Part shown: positions 13,839 to 33,244 of the stretch, piece after piece
How positions within the stretch are numbered: the first letter of the stretch is position 1
How the letters are laid out: the number at the start of each line of letters is the position of its first letter
Assembly (NCBI GenBank): GCA_946411735.1
Contig: CAMKFB010000016.1
Location: forward strand, 1-35,001
Direction: 5' to 3'
Length of the DNA: 35,001 nucleotides
From: an uncultured Selenomonadales bacterium
GTDB lineage: Bacteria; Bacillota; Negativicutes; Selenomonadales; Selenomonadaceae
Notes under the pieces: generated by a model
What the model was told of the DNA's origin: nothing
The model's input: only the letters and a program-made list of their open reading frames with translations
Database searches by the model: none
Made by a program: the position numbers and the translations under genes

Positions 13839-16800
13839 TTACCGATTCGCCGGCTTCAAATGCTCGACAACGTGATCGAGATGCGTTCCATGCGACGATT
13901 TGATTAGAACGGTATCGCCGTCGCGGAGCCAACCGTCAAGCGCCGCGTTCAATTCTTTATAAGTCGGGAACCACGCGCCGTTAATTTTTTCCTTGATATC
14001 GTCGTAAAGATATTTCATCAGCTCGCCGACCAACAGCACTCGATTTGGCTCCGCATCGAACAGCGTCGTCGAGACCGCGCGATGTTGCTTGATCGTATCG
14101 GCGCCCAGCTCGAGCATATCACCAAGAATCGCCACACGCCGTTTCTTATCCGCCTCGAGCGACTTTAAATAGCAGAGCGAACCTTTCATCGACAGCGGAT
14201 TGGCGTTGAAGGAGCTGTTGATCACTCGTAATTTTTTGCCGTTGAAACTCGTGTTGATGATGTTGCCGCGCCCCTCGACCGTTTCAAAAGTCTTGAGCAG
14301 CTCCAAAATTTCTTCGATCGGCAGCCCCGATGCCTTCGCCACACCGATCACCGCCAACGCATCGTAAAGTTGCTCATTCGGTCCGGGGCATTCGAGCCGA
14401 TACGATTGCCCCTCGACCGTGAAGACGCCGCCATTCTCGAGTCGCTCCATTCGGATCGTCGAGTCGGGATGCGTCCCAAACGAAATGATGTTGAGGCTGT
14501 ATTTGTTCGCGCGCTCCTCAAAAACTTCGTAGCAAGGCATGTCGCGATTGAGGATCGCATAGCCGCCCGGCGCCATCCCGCACATCACGCAGCTCTTGAA
14601 ATTGGCAAGGTTCTCAATCGATTTATACTCCTCGGCGTGAGCGGTGGTGAGCGACGTGACGACGGCGATATCGGGGCGAATCTCGTAGGTGATCGAGCCG
14701 CGCGGAGATGACAACGCCGACACCGCAACCTCGATGATCGCAAAGGCGGCATCTTGACGAACGCTCGCAAACACATACGGCACCATCACGCGCGTGTTGA
14801 CGGAACCGTAAGTGGCGGCAACTTCATGGTCGTGACCGAGCACGTGGCGGAGCATGTAACACGTCGTTGTCTTGCCGCTCGAGCCCGTCACAGCGATCGT
14901 TCTGCCTTGGAAACGTTGACGGGCGGCGAAGCCAAGCTCCATGCTACGACGAACGGGATCATCGACCAACAAAAGAGGATAGTCGGGCGGCAGCCCCTCG
15001 ACGGGATGAGAAATCATCGCGCCCGCCGTCGTCTCGAGGCATTTTTTGATGCTGACGTGCGAATCCCATTTTGTCGGAGTGCCGCCGGCGTGGAAAGCGT
15101 GTTGAGCCTGAGTGTTGGCGACGAACAGAGTCGGCTTGGGCATAATCGAATGATTTTCCGGCGTTCGGAGCAGCGATTGAATGTACCAACCCTCGGGCGG
15201 CTCGACCAACCATCGACCGCCCGTCACCGCCGCCAACTGCTTCGCGTTCCAACATTGCCCGAGCTTCGATTTATAAATGACGTCGGGGAAATCGTAATTG
15301 TAACGCGCGATGTTGGTGAGCGCCAACTTGATCGGCTGCGGATCGCGGAACGGTCCCCAAATTTGACCGTCGATCCTGACACGAATCTCGATGCGGAGAT
15401 CGACGTTGAACAGCCGATTGAAATACGGCGGACGCAATCCGAACTTCTCCCGATAAATCACGCCGGGCTTCCAACGCTTGACGGGGAACTGCCAATCGCA
15501 AAAATCGTGATCCATGCCCGCGCCGAAAGTCGATACGCGGCACTCTCGAACGGGCGGCGCGATGATCTCCAGCCGGCAATCTTTGTCGAGCGGCTTATGG
15601 ATCGTCCAATACGTTTCGACGTAGAGCATTCGACGGCTCGTCATCGTTCGACACTCGGGCGGCACGCGATAGCCGATCATCTTCAGCGGCCCAAACCACT
15701 TGGGCGAAAGGATCGCCTCATCGGGCACGCGCTCGACCGTCCACTCGGGGCGCGGCTCGCTCAACGGCTCGATCGTTTGATGTTCGAGTTTTGACGGATC
15801 GAATGTCGAAGGCAAAATTTCAATCGCCGAAGAAGATCGATCGGGCGGCATGAAATCAATTTCGACGATGCCGTCTTTGATTGTCGCCTCGGTCTCGAGC
15901 TCGCGGCACATCTCGACGAACCAATTATTAATCCGATCGCGCGAACGCGTCGCCGGCACCACGTAACCGTAACCGTTGCGCAGAGGCGAGAACGTCACGC
16001 GTCGGACGCCGCTCCGATCGACTGTCAACAAAAAGCCGCCCGTATCTTTTTCGCCGCCCGCCGACTCGAATAAAAAGTTGCCGGCATCGTAGATGATCGG
16101 GCGCCCGCCATAATTCTCGACGCCGTGAAGGTTATGCGAATGACAGCCCAACACCGCATCGGCGCCGCAATCGATCAACACTCTGCCGAGCGTCCTTATG
16201 TGATCCAACGGTTTTTTGCCGTCGCCCCAATGCGGAGCGATGAACACCAAATCGGCGTGATGACGGGCATCGGCGATCTTGTCGACGAAAATCGAACGCC
16301 ACAGCTCGATATCCTTGACGGGCAAATGCCACGTGCCCGCCTTATCCTCGGTCGCGGCGAAATTCTTGGTGATCGTGTCGACGGAGAAAATCGCGACGAC
16401 CATATTTTTGACCTTGACGAAAACAGGCTTGGAAGCCTCGTCGAGATTTTTGCCGCTGCCGACGTGAATGATGCCCGCCCGATCGAGATATCCAAGCTGC
16501 TCGAGCACGGCCTCGGGACCGTAATCGCCGCAATGATTGTTGGCTGTCAGCGCCACATCGATGTGCGCGCTCGTCAAGAGGTTGGTCATCTCGGGGCGCG
16601 CATGATAGTAGTACGGACCGCCCTCGCCCTTTTCGACGCCCTGTTCGCCGACGGTCGAGATCACGCTTTCGAGATTGACGATGCGAAGGTCGGCGTTGCG
16701 CATTGCGGGGATATTGCCGAACTGCTTCACCTCGTTGACGCGCCAGTGCATACGCCGTGCCACGACCAGATCGCCCGCGAAAAATATTTCCGCCCCGTCG

Positions 16801-18518: not shown

Positions 18519-18559
18519 GAAAACTCCTTTCGCCCGCCCGCTTCCTCCCGCAAAATCTT

Positions 18560-19120
18560 TTATTCCTTCTCGATCTCGAGCACGCGCGCCGACAACCCTT
18601 CGCGCCCTCTGACGTAAGTAAAATGCCACGGCTCAAAATCAAACTCTCGCTTAAATCCGAATGACTCGGCGTTGGCGTTGAGCCAATCCCGCGTCGCCTT
18701 CACGCCCTCATTCTGTATATCGACCGCCAACCCGTAGCAGTGCGAACTGAAGCCCGGCACTTGCGCGAACGTCTGACCGTTATTCAACTGCCAAACGCGC
18801 CCTTCGTACTCGACGCGGATCGCGCCCTCTCGAATGTCCGCGCGGCTCTCGATCGGCGTGAAGCGATGTTTGAACTCGCGCTCCTGACTCTCAAACGTCC
18901 TGTATGTGTTGAACGGATGATTGACTTTGATCAACACGCCGTCGCGCTTGGCGGCTTTGAGCATCGCATTCCAACTCCGCGCGGCGTCGACGTACATGAA
19001 AATCTTGTCGGCGATCGGAATCAGCAAGTCCTTCGGCATGCGACCGTTGAGCTCCGGCGTGATTCCCTCCGGCAAAAGCTCCCGCACATCAAACCGCGCT
19101 TTTGGAACGTTAAGTGCCAA
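18560..19120 (-). CDS. M15-type (VanY-like) D-Ala-D-Ala peptidase
   Basis: Zinc peptidase of the M15 fold, which cleaves D-Ala-containing or L-Ala-D-Glu peptide bonds of peptidoglycan-like peptides. About 186 residues. The zinc motif SSHCYGLAVDI (SxHxxGxAxD) and the distal EPWHFTYV are both intact, so it should be active. No signal peptide is seen. The start is doubtful: 19120 is a TTG with no properly spaced ribosome binding site, and the frame is open without a stop back into the 3' end of the CapA-MurF gene upstream, past a C9 tract. It may be translated by coupling, or as a fusion after slippage at that tract. Pairing a MurF-like ligase with such a peptidase suggests synthesis plus trimming of peptide branches. 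Confidence 0.82.
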   Translation of the reverse strand: MALNVPKARFDVRELLPEGITPELNGRMPKDLLIPIADKIFMYVDAARSWNAMLKAAKRDGVLIKVNHPFNTYRTFESQEREFKHRFTPIESRADIREGAIRVEYEGRVWQLNNGQTFAQVPGFSSHCYGLAVDIQNEGVKATRDWLNANAESFGFKREFDFEPWHFTYVRGREGLSARVLEIEKE

Positions 19121-19134
19121 CCTCAGATCATGAA

Positions 19135-20751
19135 TTATTTCTGGGGGGGGGCGGTCGCGTTGGTCAGATGCTCAACCGCGTGAGTGAGACCGGTTGCGTT
19201 AGACGACTTCAACAGAACCGTGTCGCCGTCGCGCAACCACGCATTGACGCCCGCGATCAATTCTTTATACGTCGGGAACCACGCGCCGTTGATTTTGTCT
19301 TTGATGTCGTCGTAGAGATGTTTCATCAGCGAGCCGACCAGCAGCACCCGATCCGCTTGCGTCGACAGCACCGCCTCCGCCAGACTTCGATGGTGAGCGA
19401 TCTCGTTCGCTCCGAGCTCTGCAATGTCGCCGAGGATTGCCACACGCCGACTTGCCTCCGACTCAAGCTCCGTCAAATACTTCAGCGCGCTGCTCATCGA
19501 GGCGACGTTGGCATTATAGGCGCTGTCAATCACGCGCAACTTCAGACCGTTATATTCTGTCTCGATCACGCTGCCGCGCCCCTTGACCGGCGTGAACGTC
19601 TTAAGATGTTTCAACGCGTACTCGATCGAAACGCCCGAGGCGATCGACACGCCCAATACCGCCAACGCATCATACAATTGCTCCGACGGCACCGAACACT
19701 CGAGCGTATAACTCCGACCGCCGAAGGTAAATGAGCCGCCGTTTTTTATCTCCGTCATGCGAATCGTCGAGTCGGGATGCGCGCCGAAGGTGATGATGTT
19801 GAGATTTTTCGACAGCGCCTTCTGCTCAAAAATATCGTAATGCGGCATGTCCCGATTGAGGATCGCATAGCCGCCCGCCGACATCCCGTTGAAGACACGC
19901 GCCTTCACTTGAGCGAGCCTCGTCGTCGAGCCGTATGCTTCAATGTGCGCCGGAGTGAGCGACGTGACGACGGCGATATGCGGCGGCAAATCGTAAGTGA
20001 TTGAGCCGCGCGGAATGGTGAAAGCGCCGATCGCCATCTCGATAATCGCAAACGTCGTGTCCTGTTTGACGTTGGCGAATTGAAGCGGCACGCCGAGCCC
20101 CAAGTTCACCGAGCCGTAGCTTGCCACAACGTCGTGATCCTGACCGAGCACGTGACGGAGCATGTAGGTCGTCGTGGTTTTGCCCGCCGAGCCGGTGATC
20201 GCGATCATCTTGCCTTGGAATCGTTTTCGAGCGGCAAGCGCCAGTTCCATGCACGCCTTGATCGTGTCCTCGACCATCAGCAGCGGAAAATCCTTCGGCA
20301 GCCCCTCGACGGGATGATCGATCATAGCGCATGCCACTCTATTGATGTGTTTAGCAATTTGCGAGTGAGTGTCGTCGCCCGACGTGCGCGGATTAAGCCC
20401 GACATGAAAATTCATCATTGAACGGCGCCGCGCAACAAACATTGTCGGCTGTTCGACCTGCTCGTAAAAAATCATGTCCCTGAGGATCGATTGAATGTAA
20501 AAACCCTCAGGCGGCTCGACCAGCCATTTGCCGCCCGTCACCGCCGCCAATTGCTCCGCCGTCCAACATTTGTCCGGCTCCGAATGATATATGATGTCGG
20601 GGAACTCTCGACGGTAGATCGGATAATTCGGCATCTGCGAAACGATCGGCTCGGGATCGACGAACTTCTCGCAATCGACGCCGTCAATCTTGACGCTCAT
20701 CTCGAGCTGCAGATCGACGTTGACCATGCGATCTCCCGCCGGCGGTCGCAC
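19135..20751 (-). CDS. MurF-like ligase, downstream part of an interrupted CapA-MurF gene
   Basis: 538 residues from a GTG at 20751 that has AAGGAG nine bases upstream, so independent translation is plausible. The first ~70 residues finish the beta-sandwich (VNVDLQLEMSVKIDGVD). The MurF-like part follows: substrate domain QLAAVTGGKWLVEPPEG, P-loop ITGSAGKTTTTYM near residue 185, central EMAIGAFTIPRG with VVTSLTPAHIEA, and C-terminal VIDSAYNANVASM and ILGDIAELG. All ATP and metal motifs are intact. The frame continues upstream through a single TGA (20802-20800) into the CapA-like half, with homology to the paralogues across the stop. It ends with a C9 tract and a TAA at 19135. Confidence 0.8.
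   Translation of the reverse strand: MRPPAGDRMVNVDLQLEMSVKIDGVDCEKFVDPEPIVSQMPNYPIYRREFPDIIYHSEPDKCWTAEQLAAVTGGKWLVEPPEGFYIQSILRDMIFYEQVEQPTMFVARRRSMMNFHVGLNPRTSGDDTHSQIAKHINRVACAMIDHPVEGLPKDFPLLMVEDTIKACMELALAARKRFQGKMIAITGSAGKTTTTYMLRHVLGQDHDVVASYGSVNLGLGVPLQFANVKQDTTFAIIEMAIGAFTIPRGSITYDLPPHIAVVTSLTPAHIEAYGSTTRLAQVKARVFNGMSAGGYAILNRDMPHYDIFEQKALSKNLNIITFGAHPDSTIRMTEIKNGGSFTFGGRSYTLECSVPSEQLYDALAVLGVSIASGVSIEYALKHLKTFTPVKGRGSVIETEYNGLKLRVIDSAYNANVASMSSALKYLTELESEASRRVAILGDIAELGANEIAHHRSLAEAVLSTQADRVLLVGSLMKHLYDDIKDKINGAWFPTYKELIAGVNAWLRDGDTVLLKSSNATGLTHAVEHLTNATAPPQK
19143..19151 (-). repeat. Homopolymer tract C9 at a gene junction
   Basis: Nine consecutive C (coding strand) three codons before the stop of the CapA-MurF gene. 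With ten C the frame runs past the stop at 19135 and enters the M15 peptidase frame without another stop. Tracts of this length are typical slippage sites for phase variation or transcriptional frameshifting. Confidence 0.8.
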
Positions 20752-20799
20752 TCCGAATCGCTCCTTGTAAATAACGCCCGGCTTCCAACGATTGACCGG

Positions 20800-21888
20800 T
20801 CACATCCAATCGCAAAAATCGTGATCCATATTGGTGTCGTAGCCGTACATTATGCACTCGCGCGTCGGCTTGATGGAGATTTGCAGTCGACAATCGCTCG
20901 GCACGGGCTGATCGATCGTCCAATACGTTTCGACGTAGATGATCCCGCGCTTCTTCAACGTTCGATACTCGGGCGGAATCCGATAGCCGACCATCTTGAT
21001 CGGTCCGAAGTGAATCGGACGAATGATCGCCTCGTCGGGCACGCGCTCGACCGTCCACTCGGGGCGCGGTTCGCTCAACGGCTCGATCAGGCGGCGCTCG
21101 ATTGTCAACGGATCGATGAGAGTTGAAGGTTCTTCTTTATGAACGACTCCGCGCGGAGCGGGATCGAAGGCGATGTCGACGGTGCCGTCGTCGTTAATGG
21201 CGGCGGCGGTGTCGAGGGCGCGACACATCTCGACGAAATTTTTGTTGATGCGATCGCGATGACGCGCGTCGATTTTGACGAAGCCGAAGCCGTTGCGCAA
21301 GGGCGTGAAGTTGATCGAGCGGACACCGTTTCGATCGACCGTCAACAGAAAACCGCCGGTGTCAACGCCGTCGGCGCCGCGCGGAAAATATCTTGTATCG
21401 AAAAGGAAATTGCCGGCATCGTAGACTATCGGGCGCCCTTTGTAATTCTCGACGCCCTGAAGAACGTGAGCGTGGCAGCCGAGGACGGCATCGGCGCCGA
21501 GATCGATCAGCAGGCGATCGAGCGTCTTCTGATACTCGAGAGGCTCCGTCGCATCGTTATTGCCCCAATGAGGAGCGACAAATACGAGATCGGTATGACG
21601 ACGTGCGTCGGCGATCCGCGCGGAGAAAATGTCGCGCCATTGATCGGTTTTCAAGTACACGTCGATGCCGAATTTCTCTCGAAACAACTTCGCACGACGG
21701 AACGCCGACATCTCCAGCCCCGTCGTCTTCGGCACGATGTTGCGCAGCATGATAAAGATCACGCCGTTATGCTCTTTCAATTCCCTCGGGAATATGCTCG
21801 GATCAAAATCGTCGGGGACGGGCGGAATGAGCGCTTCGGGCGGAGAATTTTTCGGCTCCGCGCCGTTGACAACGCTGTTTTCGTTCAA
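20800..21888 (-). CDS. Chimeric GT-fragment / truncated CapA / beta-sandwich, upstream part of the interrupted gene
   Basis: 362 residues. Residues about 35-75 (GVIFIMLRNIVPKTTGLEMS, AFRRAKLF) match the start of the glycosyltransferase domain of the gene at 26888-30268, not CapA. At about residue 80 the sequence changes abruptly to the middle of the CapA domain (IFSARIADARRHTDLVFVAP, then GCHAHVL). The N-terminal CapA motifs (GD, NLE, NNH) are missing, so this domain is probably inactive. The beta-sandwich follows and stops at DHDFCDWM with TGA, where the paralogues read DWQFP; PVNRWKPGVIY continues in the same frame after the stop. RBS and spacing (30 bp after the previous gene) are normal. 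A nonsense mutation or base-call error are the simplest explanations. Confidence 0.75.
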   Translation of the reverse strand: MNENSVVNGAEPKNSPPEALIPPVPDDFDPSIFPRELKEHNGVIFIMLRNIVPKTTGLEMSAFRRAKLFREKFGIDVYLKTDQWRDIFSARIADARRHTDLVFVAPHWGNNDATEPLEYQKTLDRLLIDLGADAVLGCHAHVLQGVENYKGRPIVYDAGNFLFDTRYFPRGADGVDTGGFLLTVDRNGVRSINFTPLRNGFGFVKIDARHRDRINKNFVEMCRALDTAAAINDDGTVDIAFDPAPRGVVHKEEPSTLIDPLTIERRLIEPLSEPRPEWTVERVPDEAIIRPIHFGPIKMVGYRIPPEYRTLKKRGIIYVETYWTIDQPVPSDCRLQISIKPTRECIMYGYDTNMDHDFCDWM

Positions 21889-21918
21889 AATGACGTCATC
21901 TCCTCACAAAAAAATAGA

Positions 21919-24900
21919 TCAAAAGTACCGGTTAGGAGCTGGCGGCACATATGTGGGGGGCGCTTTCACGCCTTCATCCTGCATATCAATCTCGAGAGTG
22001 TCCTCGTCGGCGCCGACCGGTTTGCCGTTCAAAAGCTTCGCGCTCGGTTGAGGAATGTGATTGCGCCGCGCAAGATACTTGCGATAGTTGACCAGACCGC
22101 CGAGGAAGTGCTGAATGTCATCGATGCGAACGCGGAAGGCATCATGGCGAATGTAAAACGAGCCCACGATCGACTCGGGACGCTTGAAAAACATCGCCGT
22201 CTCCTCCCAGAAATAGCCGTTGAGCAATTTCCGAGCACGCTCCTCCATCGCCGCGTAAAAATCCTCCAGCGGCACTCTCGACAGCAGATCGCTCATCTCC
22301 GGCAGCGTTTTCAACCGTTCGAGCAATGCGTCCGCCGCCATCACCAGCTCCATCACCGTCGGCACTTGAGTAAAGCGATGATAGATGTACGGCAGCAGCG
22401 CCAGGAAATTGTTGATGCCGAACTCGAAGTACTCGCGCTTGGGTTGCCAGATCGTCAGCTCGTTTATCGCATACGACAGCCAGTGATCGTGGTGCTGCCA
22501 ATGATCTGTCTCAACAAAATGTTGGAACGTCCGCTCCGACGCCTCGAGCAAGCGCGCGTCGTGCGTGATCGAGTAGAGCCGCATCAATCCGAAAATCGCC
22601 TCGCCGTCGAAGAATATGATGCGGAACTCATTCTTGACCTCGAAAGTGTCGGAGTTCAGCACGTGGATGAAGGAGCCGTCCGGCTTTTGCATCGAGATGA
22701 TTCCCTCGGCAATCTCGTTCATCAGCGGCAGGTACTTGTCGGTTTTCATCTTGACGGCGTGATTGGTGAGAGCAAGCAACGCCAGCGCGGCATTGCCAAT
22801 CTTCGCCTCCTTGACCTTGGGCTCGATGATGTAAGCGGCTTGAGAGCCGTCGGGCATTTGGCGACGGACGACAAATTCTTTGACGCCATATTCGAGCCCG
22901 CGCTCGATCGCGCGACGCAACCGCTCCGATTGCTCCGTCGGTCGGTCGTAGGTGCCGTAGACTTCGAGCATCGCATAAATCGAGCTGAAATGCCTGCCGG
23001 TGTTGTAAGTCGCAATGACCTTGTCGGTACAGGGGAAGCGCCCGTAGATGAACTGACCGTTTTCCTGCACGTCGAGCGCAAGATGATCGGCGCCCGAGCG
23101 CACGCAATCGAGAACCAGCGCGTCGTCGATTTGAGCGATGTCGCGATGGTCGGCGGCAAGATTGGTGTCGGTGATCAAAAGCGGCTCGTCAAGGTCGTCG
23201 GCGATAAACGTGCCGTTGGTGCTGAACAAATACACCGCGCTCGAGGGGGCGGGCGTCGGGAAATCGCACTTATAACGGCGCCGGCAATACTCGTCGCTGC
23301 GATCCTGTCGAAAGACGCAAAACGGGCTTCCGCCGTCGCCGTCGGCGAAAAGCATGATGTTGGCGTTAAGCTCCGACTCGGTAAAGGCAAGCGCAAAGTT
23401 TTGATCGAGCGCAAGTCCCTTGCGGAAGTAATTGCGCTTGGTCTTGCCGATCTGATCGATAAAGCCCGCCCACGTGGTCGATTCGACATCAACAACGAAA
23501 TCCGCGCGGAGGATCGTAGGTTGGATCGTGCCGAGCGCGGAGCGTAATTTCTCGACGGCGGCGGTCCAAGCCTTGGCGGGATCGGGATCGGAGGCGTGAC
23601 GAGTGACGGCGCGCGATTGCATACTCGACGCCGATAAGAATACTCGACACGGCTGATAGGAATTTTTGCCGGCGACCTCGAGGAATTTCGATTTCAATCG
23701 ACGCGCCAAGCGATCGAGCGGTGTCATAAGTTCGCTGACTGCTTCCTGCTTTCGAATGGTCGTCAGGCGCGAGTCGATCAGCGCGACCTCGTCAAGCAAT
23801 GACGCCGAAGGTTGAGGCTCCGACGTCCGTCGCTCGAGATAACGTCGGTAAGCGACCGCGCCCGAGAACAAAAATTCCATGTCGAGCACCATCACTCGAA
23901 ATGCGTTGTGACGGAGGAAAAACGCGTCGACAACCGTGTCGGGACGCTTGAAAAACATCGCGAACTCCGGATAGAAATAAGCGTCGATGAGCGCCTGCAT
24001 CTGCTGTTCCAACGTCGCGTGCAGGTCTTCGACGTTGATATCCGCGCTCAGATCGGACATCTCCGGCATCGACTTGAGCTGCTCGATGAGATTGTCGGCG
24101 GCGATGAGCAACTCGAGCGAACGCGGATCGTGAGACTGCTGATGCCAAATCGGACGGAGCTGATCGGCGAAAGTCTTAACGCCGAATTCAAAGTACTCGC
24201 GTTTGGGCAGATGGCGCGTGATGTCGTCAACGGCGTGAACGAGCAGTGGATCGTGCAGCTTCCACATCTCGTTGATGATGAAATAAGTGAAGGCGCGTTC
24301 GGCGGCGTCGAGCAATTTCTGATCGCCGTTGAGCGCGTGCAGTCGAAGAAGTCCGAGCGTCGCAAGTCCGTCGAAGGTGGCGACGTGCACCTGATCCTTG
24401 ACGGAGTAATCAACGAGCTTGAGCGCGTGGGCGAAGGAGCCGTCGTCGTTTTGCATCGACAAGATTCCGCGCGCAAGCTCCTCCATCAGCTGAGTGTATT
24501 TCTTGGTCTTCATGAGGACGGCGTGCTTGGCAAGGGCGATCAGCGCCGCGCCGTTTGCGCCGAGGCGAATGTCATTGCCATCGATCGAAACGATGTAAGC
24601 GGCTTCGGAGCCGTCAGCGAGAGTGCGGTGCTTTACATAGCTTTTGATGCCGAATTGGAGCGCCTTGGTAATGGCGGCGCCGAGCGAGGAGTTGCCGATC
24701 CTGCCGTAAGTTTCGTAGACGTCGAGCAGGGCGGTGATGAAATTGAAATGCTTGAGTGGAACGCGCATCGGCACAACCTTATCGACGCAGGGATATCGAT
24801 CGCAAAGGAATTGCTCCTTCTTCTTGATCTCCGTGGCGAAGTAGGCGGCGCCGTTGCGAACGAGTTTAAGAATCGCCGCATCGTCATCGCGCTCGAGCGG

Positions 24901-25479
24901 ACGATGATCGGCGGCAAGCCCTTCGCTGTCGAGAAGGATCGCGTTTTTCTCGATGTCGGAGGCGAAAACGCCGGCAGTGGTAAAGGTGATGATCGTGTTC
25001 GACGGATCGGGCGTCGGGAAGACGCTATTGAAGCGTGTTTGACAATATCCGTTGCAGCGTTCCTCATTGAAGACGCAGTTCGGATCGCCGTTGGGACCGT
25101 CGCGATAGAGCATGGCATTGCCGGTGAGCTCGGGCTCGATGAAGGCGGTGTTGAAATCGGGATCGAGCGCCAGCCCCCGACGATAATAATTCCGTTGAAA
25201 TTGAGTGATGGAAGTCAGAAATTCCGCCCACGTCGTCTGCTCCTCTTCGACGACCCAATCCGCGCGGAGTATCGTCGGATTAATGCTGCCGAGCGCGGAT
25301 TTGAGATTATCGACGGCGGCAGTCCAAGCGTCGGCGGGAGTGTCGGCGGAGACGTGACGCGTGATCGCCCGCGCCTTCATGTCGGAGGCGGACAAGAACA
25401 ATCGAAACGGTTGATGCCCGTTCGATGCGGCGTCGAGGAACGCCGGCTTCAATTTTTTTATCAGTTGATCCAATGACAT
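21919..25479 (-). CDS. Tandem helical-barrel protein (two copies of the N-module plus barrel, 1186 aa)
   Basis: Two full copies of the module found at the N-terminus of the neighbouring fusions: copy 1 about residues 1-575 (FRLFLSASDMKARAITRH) and copy 2 about 595-1145 (CRVFLSASSMQSRAVTRHAS). Copy 2 keeps the shared barrel motifs FFDGEAIFGLMRLYSIT and DHWQHHDHWLSYA; copy 1 has FDGLATLGLLRLHA and MWKLHDPLLVHAV, losing the conserved Glu and His. The fold resembles alpha/alpha toroid glycosidases, lyases or C5-epimerases, but I cannot assign an activity. No signal peptide. A P/Q-rich linker (PQPS) follows each barrel. ATG 25479 has AAAGGAG 6 bases ahead. There are 30-bp gaps on both sides, so it is co-transcribed. 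Confidence 0.8.
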   Translation of the reverse strand: MSLDQLIKKLKPAFLDAASNGHQPFRLFLSASDMKARAITRHVSADTPADAWTAAVDNLKSALGSINPTILRADWVVEEEQTTWAEFLTSITQFQRNYYRRGLALDPDFNTAFIEPELTGNAMLYRDGPNGDPNCVFNEERCNGYCQTRFNSVFPTPDPSNTIITFTTAGVFASDIEKNAILLDSEGLAADHRPLERDDDAAILKLVRNGAAYFATEIKKKEQFLCDRYPCVDKVVPMRVPLKHFNFITALLDVYETYGRIGNSSLGAAITKALQFGIKSYVKHRTLADGSEAAYIVSIDGNDIRLGANGAALIALAKHAVLMKTKKYTQLMEELARGILSMQNDDGSFAHALKLVDYSVKDQVHVATFDGLATLGLLRLHALNGDQKLLDAAERAFTYFIINEMWKLHDPLLVHAVDDITRHLPKREYFEFGVKTFADQLRPIWHQQSHDPRSLELLIAADNLIEQLKSMPEMSDLSADINVEDLHATLEQQMQALIDAYFYPEFAMFFKRPDTVVDAFFLRHNAFRVMVLDMEFLFSGAVAYRRYLERRTSEPQPSASLLDEVALIDSRLTTIRKQEAVSELMTPLDRLARRLKSKFLEVAGKNSYQPCRVFLSASSMQSRAVTRHASDPDPAKAWTAAVEKLRSALGTIQPTILRADFVVDVESTTWAGFIDQIGKTKRNYFRKGLALDQNFALAFTESELNANIMLFADGDGGSPFCVFRQDRSDEYCRRRYKCDFPTPAPSSAVYLFSTNGTFIADDLDEPLLITDTNLAADHRDIAQIDDALVLDCVRSGADHLALDVQENGQFIYGRFPCTDKVIATYNTGRHFSSIYAMLEVYGTYDRPTEQSERLRRAIERGLEYGVKEFVVRRQMPDGSQAAYIIEPKVKEAKIGNAALALLALTNHAVKMKTDKYLPLMNEIAEGIISMQKPDGSFIHVLNSDTFEVKNEFRIIFFDGEAIFGLMRLYSITHDARLLEASERTFQHFVETDHWQHHDHWLSYAINELTIWQPKREYFEFGINNFLALLPYIYHRFTQVPTVMELVMAADALLERLKTLPEMSDLLSRVPLEDFYAAMEERARKLLNGYFWEETAMFFKRPESIVGSFYIRHDAFRVRIDDIQHFLGGLVNYRKYLARRNHIPQPSAKLLNGKPVGADEDTLEIDMQDEGVKAPPTYVPPAPNRYF

Positions 25480-25509
25480 AAAAAACTCCTTTCTTTGTAT
25501 CAAAAAAGT

Positions 25510-25965
25510 TTATGAGCAAAGATATTTTACCGCGTGATCGAGATGCGTCGCGTGAGATGACTTGATAAGTACCGTGTCGCCGTCGCGCAACCATGCATCG
25601 ATCGCCGCGATCAGCACTTTGTACGTCGGGAACCACACGCCTTTGATTTTGTCGCCGAGCTCCGCCACATCTTCTTGACCGTCGAAACTAAACGATCCGC
25701 CGTTTTTGATCGTCGTCATGCGAAACGAGCGATTTGCCGTTGGCAAGCTCCTCAAGGGAGGCGCCGTTGGCAAGATAAACCTCGAAAATGGCGGTGACGA
25801 CGGTGATGTGCGACGACAGGTCGTAGTTGAAGAATTGACAACGCGAATGTCGGCAGCACTCATCGGCTCGATATCGATGAAATGTCGCGCGGCGGGATCA
25901 AGAAAGTGCATTCGACGACCGAGATTGACGTTGCCGCCGAAAAATATAGTCTGACAGGAACTCAT
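25510..25965 (-). pseudogene. Decayed CapA-MurF relic
   Basis: An open 151-codon frame with a good start and GGAAGG site, but pieced together from remnants. It opens with the CapA N-terminus (IFFGGNVNLGRRMH, ADIRVVNS). At about 25855-25770 the homology moves to another frame, which reads YDLSSHITVVTAI, matching the central MurF motif YDLPPHIAVVTSL of the paralogues. The first frame then resumes with RMTTIKNGGSFSFDGQ and ends with the MurF C-terminus (GVWFPTYKVLIAAIDAW to SSHATHLDHAVKYL). Most of the CapA domain, the whole beta-sandwich and the ligase P-loop are gone. It shows internal deletions plus at least two frame changes in a former full-length CapA-MurF gene. A short translated product is possible but would have no ligase site. 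Confidence 0.8.
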
Positions 25966-25982
25966 TTTACCTTCCCGAAAAA

Positions 25983-26891
25983 TTATTTTTTGGCGGAGTG
26001 CTTTTCGTAGACCTCGCGCACGCAATCCAAAATGATTTTATTGTTTTGAGCCGCGCGCTGCCCTTTGCGCCGCCACTGTTTCACCCCGCCGAACTGCTCG
26101 CCTGCAAACTCCTCCTTCGACTTCATGGTCTGAAGAACCTCGAGCATCACATTCGCGCCGTAAACGATGTTGTCGTGAAACACATCGGAGCCGTCAACAT
26201 ATTTATATTTATTCCGCAAAGCCTTCGGCACCTTCGCTTTGTCCTTGAGATTGACCGCCAACGGATACCACAAAATCCCCGCCACATTGTACTTGCCTTG
26301 AAAAATTTGCGTCTCCGACAGCTTATTCTTCAGCGTCCACGACACATTGCGCCCGTCGGGATATTTTTTGTTCTTCGACACCGCGTCTTGCGACCAACGC
26401 GCCATGCCCTCAAGATACCACTTATTGGTAAAGTACGTCGCGCCGTATTGAATCAGATGAAAATACTCGTGCTCGGGCGTGGCATTTTTGCGCGGGTCGA
26501 CGGTGTTTGCAATCTTGACGTGCAAAGCGCGCACCTTCGGATCATGGCGCGATTTATTGCGGACGCCGTTATACGCCAGCCCGCTGACCTTCATGTTTTT
26601 CTTTGAATCGATGTCGACCTCGATCGCGTGCACATTTTTGTAGCGCGCCGAATCGAGCGGATCGGGATAACTAAAAACGTCATGGAAAAGCTCGCGCGTC
26701 GCATTGATCTGCGTGGCAATGTCCTCTACCACATCGGGCACGCCGTTTTTGTTGAGATCGACGGGATTTTGGTAAGCGGTCTCGCCCTCGGTCTCGTAGA
26801 TCACGCTGACGACGCCCTGTTGATACACCGCCGCGCTCGCCGTCGAAATGATCGACAGCATCAACGTTAATGCAAGAAATAAAATTGTCAT
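25983..26891 (-). CDS. Secreted HExxH metallopeptidase-like protein
   Basis: 302 residues. A clear signal peptide (MTILFLALTLMLSIISTASA, cleavage before AVYQQG) makes this the only evidently exported protein in the array. The zinc motif HEYFH (ATPEHEYFHLIQYG) is near residue 140, and WYLEGMARW about 20 residues later supplies the third ligand Glu, a gluzincin arrangement. The upstream segment DLNKNGVPDVVEDIA resembles the MXAN_6640-type putative metalloproteases; this match is from memory and tentative. ATG 26891 overlaps the stop codon of the glycosyltransferase gene (ATGA), with AAGGGG upstream, so it is translationally coupled. The substrate is unknown; possibly surface or host proteins. 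Confidence 0.78.
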   Translation of the reverse strand: MTILFLALTLMLSIISTASAAVYQQGVVSVIYETEGETAYQNPVDLNKNGVPDVVEDIATQINATRELFHDVFSYPDPLDSARYKNVHAIEVDIDSKKNMKVSGLAYNGVRNKSRHDPKVRALHVKIANTVDPRKNATPEHEYFHLIQYGATYFTNKWYLEGMARWSQDAVSKNKKYPDGRNVSWTLKNKLSETQIFQGKYNVAGILWYPLAVNLKDKAKVPKALRNKYKYVDGSDVFHDNIVYGANVMLEVLQTMKSKEEFAGEQFGGVKQWRRKGQRAAQNNKIILDCVREVYEKHSAKK

Positions 26892-29800
26892 CGATCGACC
26901 CCTTTGTGCGTTAAAGCATGAAACAATCTCGCCCATTGCTCGGCAATTTTCGGCTGCGAAAACTTCTCGACGCTCCGCGCGGCGGCGGCGGACATTTTTT
27001 GTTGGAGCGCCTCGTCGGAGAGAATTTTAATGATCCGCTCGGCAAGCGCATCGACATCGCCGACCGGCACAAGATATCCGTTGACGCCGTCCTCGATCAT
27101 GTCCGAAGGACCGTAGTTGCAATCAAACGCCACCACCGGACAACCCTGCTGCAGACTTTCCGAAACGACCAGCCCGAAGCCTTCAAACGTGCTCGGAAAA
27201 AGCGACAGCGCCGAGTTCGCAAACACCGCCGGCATGTTATCGCAAAAGCCCTCAATGAGCACCGATCGCTCAAGACCTTCGGCGGCGATCCGTGCTTGAA
27301 TTTCCTCCTGCAATCCGCCGCTGCCGTAAAAATGCAACGTCGCTCGGGGAATTTTTTCGAGCACGCGCTTGAATGCCTCGATCGATTTTGCATGCCCCTT
27401 CTCCTCGGAGAAACGCCCCGCCTGCACAACGCGGAACGGATCAAACACGGTGCGTGGCTCGGACTCAAGGCGCGGCAGGGCGTGCGGGATCGTCACGACG
27501 TTATTCAGATGATACCGCTCGACAATGTCTTCGCGCTGCCGATTGGTCAGCGTGAGGATCGCGTCGGACTTGAGCCGATCGGTCAGCAAATATTGATGCC
27601 GCGCGCGCGTCTTGCCGTCTTTCAAATTGTAATGGATGCTGTGAAGGTGATGGATGACGTGCGCGTGCTGCGCGTCGGCTTGCTTGAGTTTGACGTAAGC
27701 GTCGGTGTACTCGGGCGTGCGATCACCGATTATGAAATGCGTGCGGCGATCGCTGTCGACAAGCTCAAAAACCCATTGCGCAATCGCCTCTTCGTGCGTC
27801 GAAAATTTTTGAGCTACGTTGCCGTCTCGAGCAAGGCGCTCCATCGATTGAAGCACGGATTTGTTCTCGACGATCTTATAAAACTCTCGAGCGGCAATCG
27901 ATCCGTCGGGGCGATAATACAACGCCTCCGTCGGCAAGCCGGTCGTCGGCTCGAGCGTTTGTCGACGACTCAAAAAGCCCAATGAATCATACGTGTCACG
28001 CCGAATCTTTTTGCCGTTCTCGAAAAAATTTATGTACCGCAACTTTTGATTGTCGGGATCGAAGATGCAATACATCAACAGGCGCTCGTTTCGCAGCACG
28101 CGCACATTCGACTCGACGTAATGCACTTGACAATCCGCGCTGATCGGCGGCAGTTGAGCGATCCGATCCGGCTCCGTCGCCCGATCGATCCCTTGAAAAT
28201 GATCGTACATGTTGAGGATCGGATTGTCGAGCCCGTACTTGGTAAGCTGCTCGACGACATCATTTTGATACTCGTGTGTGAGGAAATATGGCTCACAACC
28301 GAAATAGTTTTTGAAGAGGCGCGCGCGACGGAAGGCGGCGAACTCGATCCCCGCCGCTTTCGGCTTGATCGAGCGGAGCATGAAAAATATTACGCCCTTC
28401 TCTCGTTTGAACTCCGCCGCAAAACTTTCGATGTCGACGTTCGATTCGAGCACCGGCGGGGGCGATGAAACTTTTTCCTTCGGCGACTCGATTTCCGATT
28501 CGATCGTCGTCGTGTTGTCGGTCGACGGCTTATCGGACATTTGTCGGTTGAGCATGCCCGTACCTTCCGCTTTGCCCTCGAGCAGTTCTTTCGACGGTTG
28601 GGGCTCGTGATCGCGCCGCGCCAGATATCGTCGATAGGCGACAAACGCCGACAGGAAATGCTCTACGTCGTCGATCCGCACTCGAAACGCGTGATGTCGA
28701 ATGAAGAAGCTGCCGACGATGCTCCGCGGGTTTTTGAAGAACATTGCCAGCTCGGGATAAAAATAGCCGTTAAGCAAATTCTTTGCGCGCGACTCCATTG
28801 CAGCATAAAAATCGTCGAGCGGCACTTTTGATAAAAGATCGCTCATCTCGGGCATCGACTTCATGCGCTCGAGCATTGTATCGGCCGCCATCATCAACTC
28901 GAGGAGCGTCGGGAATTGCGTGTCGCGATGGTAAATGAACGGCAGGAAGCTTAAAAAGTTATTGATGCCGAACTTGAAATACTCCCTTTTGGGCTCGTAA
29001 GTTGTCAGCTCGTTGACCGCGTAGGACAGCCAGTGGTCGTGATTCTCCCAATGATCCGTCGCGATGAAACGCTTGAATGCCAACTCCGACGCCGCGCGGA
29101 GCCGATCGTCCTTCGTGATCGAATAGAGGCGCATCATCCCGAAAACCGCCTCGCCGTCGTAATAGACGATGCGGAACGGCTCCTTGACGGAGTAATCGGC
29201 GGCGTTGAGGACGTGGACGAAACTGCCGTCGGGATTTTGCATCGAATAAATGCCGCGCGCGATCGATTCCATCAACGGGAGATTTTTTTTTGTTTTCATC
29301 AGTTCGGCATGCTTGACGAGCGCCAGGAGCGTGACGCCGAGCGCGCCGAGTTTGATCTCATCGTCCTCGAGATCGATCGGATAAGCGGCGTCGGAGCCGT
29401 CGTCGAGCGTTCGATGTTTTATAAAAGTATCGATGCCGTAACGGAGCGCCTTATTGATCGCCGCGCCGAGCGTCGAGTTGCCGATCCTGCCGTAAGTCTC
29501 GTAGACGTCGAGCATCGCGAAGATCGAGCTGAAGTGTCGCAGCGTGTTATAGCCGGGGACGACTTTATCAAAGCACGGATAATGCCCGTAAATAAATCGA
29601 CCGTTCTTCTGAACTTCTTTGGCAAGGTAAGCGGCGCCGTTGCGGGCGAATTGCAGGAAGGAGGGCTCGTCGATCGGCGAAATCTCCCGATGACCCGCGT
29701 CGAGCCCCGTGCCGGTGAGCGGCAGCGGCGTCTTATCGTCGTCGGAGATGAACATGCCGACGGTGGTGAAGACGACGACGGGCTCATCGGGCGCGGGCAT

Positions 29801-30268
29801 TTGACAATCCCGATCGAAACGAATTTTATAATATTCCTCGAAACGCTTCGGTCGAACGACGCAATACTTGCTGCCTTCCTTGCCGTCGCGATAGATCATG
29901 GCGTTGGCGTTGAGCTCGGACTCGGTGAAGGCAACGTTATAGTCGGGATCGAGCGCGACGCCTTGACGGAAATAATTGCGGCGCGTCTTGCCGATCAGCT
30001 TTAAAAACTCCGCCCAAGTCATCTGTTGCTCCTCGACCACCCAATCCGCGCGGAGTATGGTCGACTTGATCGATCTGAGCGCGGATTTGAGCGACGAGAG
30101 CGCATCGAGCCAAGCGTCGGCGGGATCGGGCGATGAAGCGTGACGCGTGATCGCGCGCGTTTTCATGTCGGATGCCGACAAAAAAAGTCGGCAAGGTCGT
30201 ATATCGTAAATGCTCGGCGTGTTGAGAACCGCGAGGCATAATCGTTTTGCCAATTGATCTAGAGACAT
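26888..30268 (-). CDS. Fusion of helical-barrel module and TagE-like GT4 glycosyltransferase (1126 aa)
   Basis: Residues about 1-560 are the N-module plus barrel shared with the neighbours (CRLFLSASDMKTRAITRHAS, VYYDGEAVFGMMRLYSIT, DHWENHDHWLSYA). After a linker rich in S/T/E (about 565-610), residues about 620-1126 are a glycosyltransferase: the N-terminal part starts GVIFFMLRSIKPKAAGIEFA and resembles poly(glycerol-phosphate) glucosyltransferases (TagE/GtfA type). The GT4 half has VVQAGRFSEEKGHAKSIEAF, FYGSGGLQEEI and the donor-binding E-x7-E in STFEGFGLVVSESL. A retaining sugar transferase with a nucleotide-sugar donor is likely. No membrane segment. Start 30268 has AAAGGAG. It follows the first CapA-MurF gene by 61 bp and overlaps the peptidase gene by 4 bp. 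Confidence 0.85.
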   Translation of the reverse strand: MSLDQLAKRLCLAVLNTPSIYDIRPCRLFLSASDMKTRAITRHASSPDPADAWLDALSSLKSALRSIKSTILRADWVVEEQQMTWAEFLKLIGKTRRNYFRQGVALDPDYNVAFTESELNANAMIYRDGKEGSKYCVVRPKRFEEYYKIRFDRDCQMPAPDEPVVVFTTVGMFISDDDKTPLPLTGTGLDAGHREISPIDEPSFLQFARNGAAYLAKEVQKNGRFIYGHYPCFDKVVPGYNTLRHFSSIFAMLDVYETYGRIGNSTLGAAINKALRYGIDTFIKHRTLDDGSDAAYPIDLEDDEIKLGALGVTLLALVKHAELMKTKKNLPLMESIARGIYSMQNPDGSFVHVLNAADYSVKEPFRIVYYDGEAVFGMMRLYSITKDDRLRAASELAFKRFIATDHWENHDHWLSYAVNELTTYEPKREYFKFGINNFLSFLPFIYHRDTQFPTLLELMMAADTMLERMKSMPEMSDLLSKVPLDDFYAAMESRAKNLLNGYFYPELAMFFKNPRSIVGSFFIRHHAFRVRIDDVEHFLSAFVAYRRYLARRDHEPQPSKELLEGKAEGTGMLNRQMSDKPSTDNTTTIESEIESPKEKVSSPPPVLESNVDIESFAAEFKREKGVIFFMLRSIKPKAAGIEFAAFRRARLFKNYFGCEPYFLTHEYQNDVVEQLTKYGLDNPILNMYDHFQGIDRATEPDRIAQLPPISADCQVHYVESNVRVLRNERLLMYCIFDPDNQKLRYINFFENGKKIRRDTYDSLGFLSRRQTLEPTTGLPTEALYYRPDGSIAAREFYKIVENKSVLQSMERLARDGNVAQKFSTHEEAIAQWVFELVDSDRRTHFIIGDRTPEYTDAYVKLKQADAQHAHVIHHLHSIHYNLKDGKTRARHQYLLTDRLKSDAILTLTNRQREDIVERYHLNNVVTIPHALPRLESEPRTVFDPFRVVQAGRFSEEKGHAKSIEAFKRVLEKIPRATLHFYGSGGLQEEIQARIAAEGLERSVLIEGFCDNMPAVFANSALSLFPSTFEGFGLVVSESLQQGCPVVAFDCNYGPSDMIEDGVNGYLVPVGDVDALAERIIKILSDEALQQKMSAAAARSVEKFSQPKIAEQWARLFHALTHKGVDR

Positions 30269-30329
30269 GATAATCTCCTTTCACCGGAGGAAGTCTTTTG
30301 CGCATTATACCACGCCGCCGAAAACTAAA

Positions 30330-33158
30330 TCAATCCGAAGCGACAACGGTGCTTTTGAGGTATTTGACGACGCGGTCGAGATGCGTCGCGTGAGACGACT
30401 TGATCAGAACGGTGTCGCCGTCCCGAAGGCAGCCGTCAATCTCATTGATCAAATCCTCAAGCTGCGCGAAGTGCCGGGCATTGACGGCGTCCTTGATATC
30501 CTCCCAAAGGTATTTCATGTATTCGCCGCAGAGGAGCACGCGATCGGCTTGGGATTCGAGGACGACATCCTTGAGCTTTCGATGGATCGGGATAGACTCC
30601 TGAGCGAGTTCGGTGATGTCGCCGAGCACCGCCACGCGATGACCGGCGTTCTGTTCGATCTCCTTGAGATATCGGAGGTCACCGCTCATCGAACCGAGGT
30701 TGGCGTTGTAAGTGCTGTCGATGAGACGGAGATTTTTGCCGCCGCGATTGACTTTGATCAGATTGCCGCGTTGCGAGACGGGCGAAAAACTCTTCAATCT
30801 TTCGAGCGCCTCTTCGATCGAAAAGCCCACCGCGAACGACACGCCGATCGCCGCAAGCGCATCGTAGAGTTGTACCGCCGGTCCGGTACACTCGAGCACA
30901 TATTCTTTGCCTCCGAAGGTGAAGGTGCTGCCGCTGACGAGTTCCGTCATGCGAATGCGCGCCTCGGGATGCGTGCCGAAGGTGATAATGTTGAGCTTTG
31001 CAGCCCGCGCCTTGCTTTCAAAGGCATCGTAAAATTCCATGTCGCGATTGAGGATCGCATAGCCGCCGGGTTTCATGCCGCAAAGGACTTTACTTTTGGT
31101 CTCGACGACGCCCTCGATCGAGCCGTGGACGGCGATGTGCGCGTGGCTGATCGACGTGACGACCGCGATATCGGGCGTGATCTCGTAAGTGATCGGTCCT
31201 CTACTCATCACGAACGCCTCTGACGCCATTTCGAAGATCGCGAAGGCGGCATTGGGCAAAACATTCGCGGCAATGATCGGCACCCAAATGGTGTTTTTGT
31301 TGAGGAATGTGCGCGAGCACAGCAGCTTTTCTGACAGGATGTGGTAAATCATCGATTGAGTGGTGGTCTTGCCGCTCGAGCCGGTAACGGCGATCACCTT
31401 GCCTTGAAAGCGTCGATAAGCCGCAACGCCGAGCTCAAAGACGGCGCTGTAGGGGCGCGACACTTTCAATTGCGGCATCTCGGGCGGCACATCATTGCGG
31501 CGTTCGCTGACGATGAGTCCTCCGACTTTTGCCGGCAACGTCCCCTTCCATCTTGCCGATGTCCAAAAACTGTCGGGCGGCGCAAACAGCACGGGCGTCT
31601 TCCAATAAGTGTTTTGCATATACCCGAAATTGCAGATGACCGATTGAGCAAACCAACCCTCGGGCGGCGGCACGATCCATTCGCCGTCGGTGACGTCGAC
31701 AATCTGTTGCGCCGTCCAAAGCCGATTGGGATGCCACTCGTAAACGCTCGCGGGATATTCTTTTTTGATGTAAGACGTATTTGGAAAATGCACGTCGATG
31801 CCCGTCGGCGCCGAATATTTTCCAAGCGATTGATTGCCGTCGAAGACTTCAACCGTCAACTGCAGATCGATATTGAGGAGATTGCCTCTCGGCGGCGGCA
31901 TCATTGCAAAGCGCTCACGGTAGATCACGCCCGCCTTCCATCGATTGGTCGGGAATTGCCAATTGCAGAACTCGTGACGGGAATTTTCGCCCCAGGCTCC
32001 CATTTTGCACTCGCGCTCGGGCTCCGCGCGGAGCGACAGTCGATAACTGCGATCGATCGGCTGCTCGATCGACCAAAAGGTCTCTACGAGGATCGGCTGC
32101 CGCCGCGTCAAACGTTCGGGCTCGACGCGCCAACCGAGCAATGTCAACGCGCCGAAATGTTGAGGACGAATTATAGCGTCCTCGGGCACGCGCTCGACCG
32201 TCCACTCGGGGCGCGGTTCGCTCAACGGCTTGATCAGCATATGAATCAGGCTCGAGACCTCGATCGGTGTCAGCACATCGGAGTGCTCGTCGGCATATTG
32301 AAAGTTCGGTCTCGAAATGTCTTCGCCTCCGCGCGTAGGCGGCGCGAAGTCGATCTCGATTATGCCTTTATCGTTGATCGTCACATCGGTTCCGATTTTT
32401 TTTGCGTTCGCGAGGAAGGCGTTATTGATCCGCTCCTTTGATACGGTCGCCGGCACGGTGTAGCACTCGCGCCGACGCAGCGCCGTAAATTCGACGTGCT
32501 TGACGCCATCCCGATCGACCGTCAACAAATAACAGCCGCTGTCCTTTTCGCCAGGCTCGTCGTGCAGAAGGAAGCCCGCGGCATAGATGATCGGGCGCTC
32601 GTTATGTTTTTCGACGCGCGTGAGAAGTCTCGAGTGATTGCCGAGGACGGCGTCGGCGCCGCAATCGAGCAACGCCCGCGCGAACTCTCTTGTCTCATCG
32701 AAATATTTATCGGCAGCGGGATTCCAATCGACGGCGATGAAAATCGTGTCGGCTTGCTTGCGAAGGTCGGCGATGCGCTTGGAAGCGATGTCGGAGAAAT
32801 TTTCGTCGGCAATGTCGACGGGAAGGAGCGCGATCGTCTGATCGACAACGCGAATGAGGACGGGGCGGTCGTCGACGTGAATGATGCCGGCTTGATCGAG
32901 CAGGCGGTTTTGATCCGACAGCGCTTGACGATTGCCGGTGATCACGACGTCGATGCCGGCGCCGGTGAGAACATTGATCATCTCGGGGCGCGCGTACATA
33001 GGCGCGGGCTCGTCGAAGGGCGTCACGAGACCGATCAGATTGACGATACGAAGATCGGCGTCGCGCATCGTGGTGATGTTGCCGAACGGAGCCCGACTGC
33101 TTCCGTGCATGCGGCGACCGAGATTGACTCCTCCGCCGTAGAAAATCTCTACTGCCAT
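30330..33158 (-). CDS. CapA-like / beta-sandwich / MurF-like ligase fusion (942 aa), first gene of the array
   Basis: Residues about 1-260 have the CapA (PGA_cap) fold but with altered motifs: FYGGGVNLGRR (GD lost), VNLIGL (NLE lost), TGNRQAL (NNH lost), AVDWNP (HWG lost), GNHSRLL (GCHSH altered). About 355-470 is the beta-sandwich (PLSEPRPEWTVERVPEDA, FPTNRWKAGVIY). From about 480 the MurF-like ligase is complete: QQIVDVTDGEWIV, P-loop VTGSSGKTTTQSM near 590, FEMASEAFVMSRG, VVTSISHAHIA, LIDSTYNANLGSM and VLGDITELA. The CapA part is probably structural or regulatory, the ligase active. Start 33158 has GGAGG. It is driven by an extended -10 promoter at 33200-33192, back to back with ulaG. Confidence 0.85.
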   Translation of the reverse strand: MAVEIFYGGGVNLGRRMHGSSRAPFGNITTMRDADLRIVNLIGLVTPFDEPAPMYARPEMINVLTGAGIDVVITGNRQALSDQNRLLDQAGIIHVDDRPVLIRVVDQTIALLPVDIADENFSDIASKRIADLRKQADTIFIAVDWNPAADKYFDETREFARALLDCGADAVLGNHSRLLTRVEKHNERPIIYAAGFLLHDEPGEKDSGCYLLTVDRDGVKHVEFTALRRRECYTVPATVSKERINNAFLANAKKIGTDVTINDKGIIEIDFAPPTRGGEDISRPNFQYADEHSDVLTPIEVSSLIHMLIKPLSEPRPEWTVERVPEDAIIRPQHFGALTLLGWRVEPERLTRRQPILVETFWSIEQPIDRSYRLSLRAEPERECKMGAWGENSRHEFCNWQFPTNRWKAGVIYRERFAMMPPPRGNLLNIDLQLTVEVFDGNQSLGKYSAPTGIDVHFPNTSYIKKEYPASVYEWHPNRLWTAQQIVDVTDGEWIVPPPEGWFAQSVICNFGYMQNTYWKTPVLFAPPDSFWTSARWKGTLPAKVGGLIVSERRNDVPPEMPQLKVSRPYSAVFELGVAAYRRFQGKVIAVTGSSGKTTTQSMIYHILSEKLLCSRTFLNKNTIWVPIIAANVLPNAAFAIFEMASEAFVMSRGPITYEITPDIAVVTSISHAHIAVHGSIEGVVETKSKVLCGMKPGGYAILNRDMEFYDAFESKARAAKLNIITFGTHPEARIRMTELVSGSTFTFGGKEYVLECTGPAVQLYDALAAIGVSFAVGFSIEEALERLKSFSPVSQRGNLIKVNRGGKNLRLIDSTYNANLGSMSGDLRYLKEIEQNAGHRVAVLGDITELAQESIPIHRKLKDVVLESQADRVLLCGEYMKYLWEDIKDAVNARHFAQLEDLINEIDGCLRDGDTVLIKSSHATHLDRVVKYLKSTVVASD

Positions 33159-33224: not shown

Positions 33225-33244
33225 AAATATTGGAGGTGATCACA

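Follow-up and report, generated by a model that had tools for sequence, protein, structure and literature searches.

The window considered here is the whole of a 35,001-base contig from an uncultured Selenomonadales bacterium, and nine minus-strand open reading frames (ORFs) across its positions 13,839-33,158, lettered A to I, form an array of multi-domain enzymes that probably modifies the Asp-dipeptide repeats of large exported surface proteins before these are secreted. The array recombines a small set of modules, namely an N-terminal module with a helical barrel (together termed the N-barrel), a CapA-like domain, a beta module, a MurF-like ligase and a glycosyltransferase (GT) of family 4 (GT4). 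In other genomes, relatives of the N-barrel are linked to runs of Asp dipeptides, co-occur with them, and carry partner enzymes that correlate with the letter paired with Asp; from these associations we infer that the repeats are the substrate, as well as every chemical step proposed below. The first-pass annotation of this DNA had predicted a pathway that builds or decorates an amide-linked glycan or peptide polymer. The idea of an amide or glycan decoration is retained, but not the stand-alone polymer, since the homologous loci point to Asp-Ala and Asp-Ser runs in exported surface proteins.

A genome scan yielded 199 stretches encoding a relative of the N-barrel, and the best 80, corresponding to 78 distinct loci, were kept. 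N-barrel loci were found in Selenomonadaceae, Desulfovibrio, Methylobacter, Microbulbifer, Pseudomonas, Limnobacter, Variovorax, Agrobacterium and others, and their neighbours include adhesins with very long Asp-Ala or Asp-Ser runs; a run of at least eight dipeptides lies within the retrieved stretch in 28 of the 78. The N-barrel search called no barrel ORF in five of these loci (L082, L085, L090, L099 and L132). Clusters of HlyB-, HlyD- and TolC-like ORFs, reminiscent of a type I secretion system (T1SS), occur near the N-barrel in 31, 28 and 20 of the 78 loci, respectively, by single-linkage clustering; the clusters were named from one or two members each and may include other ABC proteins. 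For instance, in Agrobacterium pusense the gene order is TolC, a BapA/LapF-type adhesin of 1,194 residues that contains 207 dipeptides in one run, HlyB, HlyD and an N-barrel-Mur fusion. In two Microbulbifer loci with the architecture of gene A, Asp-Ala adhesins (180 and 121 dipeptides) are encoded 12-14 kb away, beyond T1SS-like genes.

The association is sharpest in Pseudomonas, where six of 199 genomes encode an N-barrel, two of them known beforehand (G060, from which the query was taken, and G062). Homologues of the run-free C-terminal part of the neighbouring adhesin are present in 37 of the 199 genomes; identity is 60-100% in the six N-barrel genomes, where the match sits 7-8 kb from the N-barrel, and does not exceed 45% in the other 31. 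A run is found beside the matched adhesin part in all six N-barrel genomes (248, 248, 191, 106 and 43 dipeptides; the sixth shows 4 before the contig ends), compared with more than three dipeptides in none of 24 N-barrel-negative homologues (Fisher 1.7e-6; phylogeny is ignored in this and the following tests). Of the 31 negative matches, seven had no locus and 11 were not retrieved at length; none of the 20 retrieved at length exceeds three dipeptides, and the frames of the positives reach 755 dipeptides; several of the retrieved adhesin frames run off the stretch. In a plasmid collection, 54 records match the N-barrel at E 1e-20, including 15 from Staphylococcus, two from Listeria and six from Enterococcus. 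Fourteen of their contexts, chosen by us to span genera, were examined, and in 13 a run lies near the N-barrel, also in Gram-positive wall-anchored proteins. A phage collection holds the N-barrel in eight of 50,697 records (H85-H92); in seven of them annotation is missing or names no product other than 'uncharacterised', and the eight are possibly host DNA.

Co-occurrence is also seen within Quinella, the genus to which the window's genome belongs by inferred assignment. Among 66 Quinella genomes, a run query matches eight and the N-barrel 17, with both in seven (Fisher 1.7e-4, with G274 counted as a run genome); this eighth genome, G274, has a weak match, no run of five dipeptides and no N-barrel. 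Barrels resembling those of the window (at least 53% identity, a threshold chosen after the list had been seen) occur in eight of the genomes, and verified runs in seven of these. In the window's genome itself, the longest run (65 dipeptides) opens contig C31 and is cut by the contig end, another of 39 dipeptides lies in a short frame on C120, and further runs of 11 (C34) and 7 (C20) lie in giant frames with hemolysin-type calcium repeats. The sister-species genome G270 has 33 run-query matches, the most among the 66. In G265 an Asp-Thr run is accompanied by two barrels with frame lengths like those of the YheC/D-fused pair of another Quinella locus, L109.

The type of partner enzyme correlates with the repeat letter. 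All seven GT-type loci with runs are Ser-majority, although six of them are Limnobacter-like relatives and the seven thus represent about two lineages, and 16 of the 18 Mur-fused loci with runs are Ala-majority, both exceptions coming from Methylobacter (Fisher 7e-5). Three of the 28 run loci (L071, L082 and L114), in which no fused partner was called, were excluded from this comparison, and L134 was counted among the GT-type loci, its GT being encoded by an ORF of its own. The plasmid contexts show the same pairing in several cases: a Klebsiella aerogenes plasmid combines an Asp-Ser run of 388 with an N-barrel-GT, a Staphylococcus epidermidis plasmid an Asp-Ser run with an N-barrel plus a GT, and Ala-majority runs accompany an N-barrel plus Mur in Staphylococcus simulans, Staphylococcus haemolyticus and Staphylococcus saprophyticus, and less clearly in Staphylococcus aureus pWBG759 (52 Ala, 34 Ser). 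In S. aureus pN10CSA27 (L267, 11627-12493) two short ORFs follow the N-barrel, one of them annotated as a Mur ligase, and the run is Ser-majority. As Asp provides the sole reactive side chain in an Asp-Ala run and Mur-type enzymes are carboxylate-amine ligases, the pairing of the two suggests Asp amidation.

A search for the fusion architecture in relatives, proposed in the first-pass annotation, recovered the order of gene A, N-barrel-CapA-beta-Mur, in Microbulbifer, Variovorax and Desulfovibrio, so that a fusion peculiar to the window's genome is rejected. Fifteen ORFs among the scanned loci carry both CapA and Mur, in the same order as in gene A, and the other fusion partners are Mur alone, GT and CapA-beta-GT, to which Quinella adds ATP-grasp domains of the YheC/D type and of a sugar-transfer type. 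Family members are often annotated as 'Mur ligase family protein' or 'poly(glycerol-phosphate) alpha-glucosyltransferase'. Several further arrangements were observed around N-barrels. The N-barrels of L026, L028, L030, L070 and L109, all from other Quinella genomes, carry one or two YheC/D ATP-grasp domains as fusion partners, and L062 (9914-16837) holds a 2,308-residue frame reaching the contig end in which an N-barrel, three ATP-grasp modules and two methyltransferase-like modules can be discerned by eye. A gene resembling alpha/beta-hydrolases (two members scanned) belongs to a cluster found in 15 loci, many of them N-barrel-Mur (e.g. L083, 13153-14082; L126, 13065-14111). In the Limnobacter-like loci L115, L121, L123, L124, L130 and L133 the gene immediately ahead of N-barrel-GT is TamB-like, with a Pfam match to TamB in L115. 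Near the N-barrel-CapA-Mur gene of Microbulbifer L073 are a cyanophycin-synthetase-like ATP-grasp fused to an acylphosphatase (15574-17562) and a 2-oxoglutarate-Fe(II) oxygenase (14835-15500).

Table 1. Features of the array and its flank, in window coordinates
Feature	Position	Strand	Content
ORF A	13839-18629 (likely start 18518)	-	N-module, barrel, CapA, beta module, MurF-like ligase
Gene B	18560-19120	-	VanY/M15-type D,D-carboxypeptidase-like; no signal sequence by eye
ORF C	19135-20751	-	Back half of split gene: remaining beta module, complete MurF-like ligase
ORF D	20800-21888	-	Front half of split gene: N-terminal GT fragment, C-half of CapA, first part of beta module
ORF E	21919-25503 (likely start 25479)	-	Two tandem copies of N-module and barrel
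Gene E, barrel copy 1	23779-25416	-	
Gene E, barrel copy 2	22009-23661	-	
ORF F	25510-26025	-	Relic: CapA start joined to last ~50 residues of a Mur ligase
Gene G	25983-26936	-	Metalloprotease-like; signal-like N-terminus (by eye)
Gene H	26888-30268	-	N-module and (alpha/alpha)6 barrel fused to SdgA/SdgB-like GT4
Gene I	30330-33158	-	CapA-like, beta module, MurF-like ligase
Metallo-beta-lactamase (MBL)-fold hydrolase gene	33230-34264	+	Flanks the array

The array itself (Table 1) had been described as eight leftward genes that reuse a module set, and this count holds, since adjoining parts of one beta module sit in different frames in ORFs C and D, which therefore read as the two halves of a split gene. 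The module counts are recovered by self-comparison: N-module plus barrel four times (in H, in A and twice in E, the barrels being 44-65% identical to each other), CapA three times plus a 38-residue relic in F, the beta module three times, Mur three times plus its end in F, and GT once plus an N-terminal piece of ~80 residues in D. This module reuse is far beyond chance, and gene A is the array's complete enzyme. The barrels of H, A and E copy 2 keep all 16 near-invariant residues, which we picked from a comparison of 68 sequences, and E copy 1 differs at nine of them; the CapA of A retains the conserved family residues, and that of I has lost the GD, NLE, NNH, HWG and HxH positions, several of which are also lost in the Desulfovibrio copies L074 and L103. 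Several module copies thus look dead. In a sister species, locus L060 has just two complete genes of this kind, N-barrel-CapA-beta-GT and N-barrel-CapA-beta-Mur, a metalloprotease gene that is the homologue of gene G at the corresponding place (61% identity), and next to the unit an MBL gene 83% identical to that of the window, which makes the two loci syntenic. It therefore appears that such a two-gene unit has been duplicated and rearranged in the window. The match coordinates of L060 recur in genome G270.

Hence the array could consist mostly of recombination debris around one or two live enzymes (A and H), a possibility to be taken seriously, even if we lean slightly against it, and one that is compatible with repeat modification. 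The relic F, the split C/D, the degenerate first barrel of E, the CapA of I and the simplicity of the sister locus all point this way, whereas the long open frames retained in E, H, I and A and the intact Mur motifs of A, C and I (in C read from the ORF) do not; the ligase of I, for instance, keeps the P-loop GSSGKTTT, the central Lys and the DSTYNAN motif. A protein of the SGNH type, secreted-looking by eye, is encoded elsewhere in the window (4845-6482, + strand), and a look-alike (L028, 9828-11447) adjoins an N-barrel/YheC-D gene in another Quinella genome.

The CapA, Mur and GT4 identities proposed in the first-pass annotation, and the peptidase nature of gene B, are borne out by Pfam and NCBIfam profile scans, so that its refuting case of domains unrelated to CapA and MurF did not arise. 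In Pfam, CapA (PGA_cap, PF09587) is matched by A (9.9e-53), D (6.3e-26) and I (2.8e-16), Mur_ligase_M and Mur_ligase_C by A, C and I (best in C, 1.1e-31 and 7.5e-16), Glycos_transf_1 by H (1.9e-37) and VanY by B (6.5e-13); no ATP-grasp family appears in the Pfam lists of the window proteins. Among NCBIfam models, murF is the best for the ligases of A, C and I, in keeping with the earlier call of MurF-like rather than CapB/PgsB, with TIGR01143 scores of 239.1, 256.4 and 230.4 bits that all stay under the cut-off of 288.6, and the array ligases have the Mur fold with P-loop, central Lys and DNAN-type motif. The top GT models for H are SdgA and SdgB, with GtfA also among the best, and its NF047880 score is 227.4 bits over profile positions 4-486 of 488 (cut-off 800). 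The CapA of A has a predicted fold like that of MslH and reaches 62.1 bits with NF038314 (cut-off 700), and the MXAN_6640 metalloprotease model matches G below its cut-off. The N-module, barrel and beta module have no Pfam or NCBIfam match above cut-off and were defined by self-similarity and structure prediction, and a PDB sequence search with the N-barrel profile returned just two chance-level matches. Structure prediction, which the first-pass annotation had recommended, gives the barrel the (alpha/alpha)6 fold of the cellobiose 2-epimerase/N-acylglucosamine 2-epimerase superfamily; the N-module and beta module, neither folded by itself, are barely covered by fold matches.

Several observations weigh against repeat modification by the N-barrel enzymes. 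No run protein is encoded on the window contig, and since the runs of this genome lie on other contigs, the link to the window passes through genome and orthology. Fifty of the 78 scanned loci have no run within the retrieved stretch, many being short contigs or cut at the flank. Within Quinella, G013 has a window-like barrel and no run match, and neither have nine genomes with only other barrels, several of them YheC/D-fused. Many N-barrel loci contain no CapA, the runs at two Methylobacter loci of the Mur type are pure Asp-Ser, and in the Acinetobacter baumannii context the N-barrel lies beside a T1SS-type protein without a run. Staphylococcal Ser-Asp (SD) adhesins served by SdgA/SdgB without an N-barrel also exist. 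Lastly, in Listeria and Enterococcus gilvus an N-barrel without an adjacent annotated ligase lies directly behind an Asp-Ala surface protein; going by gene order, the Listeria run protein is probably lmo1799 and its neighbour lmo1798. These loci suggest that the ligase is not always needed and that the barrel acts alone or with distant partners, which argues for the N-barrel as the core and disfavours the Mur ligase as such. They are also what might be expected if the N-barrel were a chaperone or secretion factor that binds acidic repeats through its conserved Arg and His residues, with ligase, GT and CapA doing the sole chemistry or acting elsewhere. The frequent T1SS-like neighbours would fit such a role too; we nevertheless regard it as unlikely.

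CapA beside a ligase is the hallmark of the CapBCA/PgsBCA systems, and CapA domains and a Mur-type ligase do share one gene here, yet a capsule like poly-gamma-glutamate, in which the two would make a free amide-linked polymer, is very improbable and was rejected, because the ligase is MurF-like and CapB/PgsB is missing from the models listed for A (25), I (20) and C (22), CapC/PgsC (PF14102) has no match in the whole genome of the window (93% complete; the Bacillus subtilis control was positive), which extends the earlier remark that no CapC was in view, many N-barrel loci lack CapA, the CapA of I lacks its conserved residues, and a repeat adhesin is the recurring neighbour in relatives. Ordinary tailoring of envelope glycans or peptidoglycan (lipopolysaccharide, O-antigen or murein side chains), which the MurF-like and GT4 domains and the VanY-like peptidase might suggest, has equally little to recommend it, given a second MurF-like gene elsewhere in the genome (contig C20), best GT models that are the protein glycosylators SdgA, SdgB and GtfA, and a linkage to repeat proteins seen in Gram-negatives and Gram-positives alike.

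We hypothesize instead that a cytosolic enzyme set acts on Asp-Ala, Asp-Ser and Asp-Thr runs ahead of export. The N-module and barrel would be its core, recognising the repeats and probably acting on them through the conserved pocket, with further chemistry on those repeats supplied by fused or adjacent partners. In gene H the SdgA-like GT4 would attach a sugar to the Ser of Asp-Ser repeats; the MurF-like ligases of A, I and C would use ATP to activate a carboxylate, most likely that of the Asp side chain, and then join an amine to that group, a reaction comparable to the one that cyanophycin synthetase performs on poly-Asp with its Mur-like domain; and the CapA of A, whose structural relative MslH is an epimerase, may likewise epimerise residues. 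The window unit would derive from a two-gene ancestor like L060 by duplication and reshuffling. More tentatively, in a view that we rate slightly below even, these loci represent a widespread protein-modification system in which an epimerase-fold N-barrel, with the help of Mur-type ligase, ATP-grasp, CapA-epimerase or GT4 partners, converts gene-encoded Asp-dipeptide repeats into surface polymers that are cyanophycin-like, with ligated side chains, and/or contain D-residues or sugars, with partner and repeat letter co-evolving, Ser for GT and Ala where only Asp is modified.

If this is correct, Mur ligases would act on ribosomally made proteins and not just on precursors, and amide ligation on repeat Asp residues would add a new kind of post-translational chemistry and offer a testable explanation of why such odd repeats exist. 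The associations tie Asp-Ala and Asp-Ser surface proteins to an enzyme family that has no Pfam or NCBIfam match over cut-off and that extends from Quinella in the rumen to Pseudomonas, Agrobacterium, Staphylococcus and Listeria. The modification could also be relevant to the cell surface layers of Quinella, the make-up of which is uncertain (PMC9585023). The finding amounts to a dedicated repeat-adhesin modification in a new form, with a real chance of new protein chemistry.

The repeat proteins themselves have been described. BapA of Paracoccus denitrificans (the BapA/BapBCD system) is a T1SS adhesin with 891 Asp-Ala repeats that is needed for biofilm formation (PMC5588039), SD-type biofilm-associated proteins are reported from Acinetobacter (PMC4647330), SdrI of S. 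saprophyticus has SD and Ala-Asp (AD) repeats (PMC4850167) and Listeria lmo1799 has 226 Ala-Asp repeats (PMC8687577). The main text of the BapA paper contains neither 'Mur' nor 'glycosyl'. In the open-access literature that was searched (subscription papers and preprints lay outside it), no paper connects Asp-dipeptide repeats with a Mur ligase or with the N-barrel, nothing was found on modification of Asp-Ala runs, and no paper describes the pathway.

Among known enzymes, the N-acylglucosamine/cellobiose 2-epimerase superfamily resembles the N-barrel in predicted fold; the N-barrel is, however, only 14% identical, has no family match over cut-off and carries an extra N-module. Compared with CapA/PgsA and the lasso-peptide epimerase MslH, the window CapA is fused between barrel and ligase, is not part of a CapBCA operon and has lost conserved residues in I. 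Cyanophycin synthetase CphA, which makes multi-arginyl-poly-aspartate, works on a non-ribosomal Asp chain, whereas the substrate here would be a gene-encoded Asp-dipeptide repeat; CphA also combines ATP-grasp and Mur-like domains in one protein, in contrast to the window proteins with their Pfam lists free of ATP-grasp. A close parallel is the SdgA/SdgB system, in which SdgB glycosylates Asp-Ser-Asp in vitro (PMC8561734). The GT4 of gene H aligns over its full length to NF047880/NF047881, and its GT-type relatives with runs lie near Asp-Ser repeats, in the manner of a dedicated enzyme encoded near its repeat adhesin; in the window's genome the runs are on other contigs. In contrast to SdgA/SdgB, gene H reaches 227 of 800 bits and is fused to an N-barrel, the SdgA/SdgB system contains nothing equivalent to the Mur-like ligase and CapA, and N-barrel relatives also accompany the T1SS adhesins of Gram-negatives.

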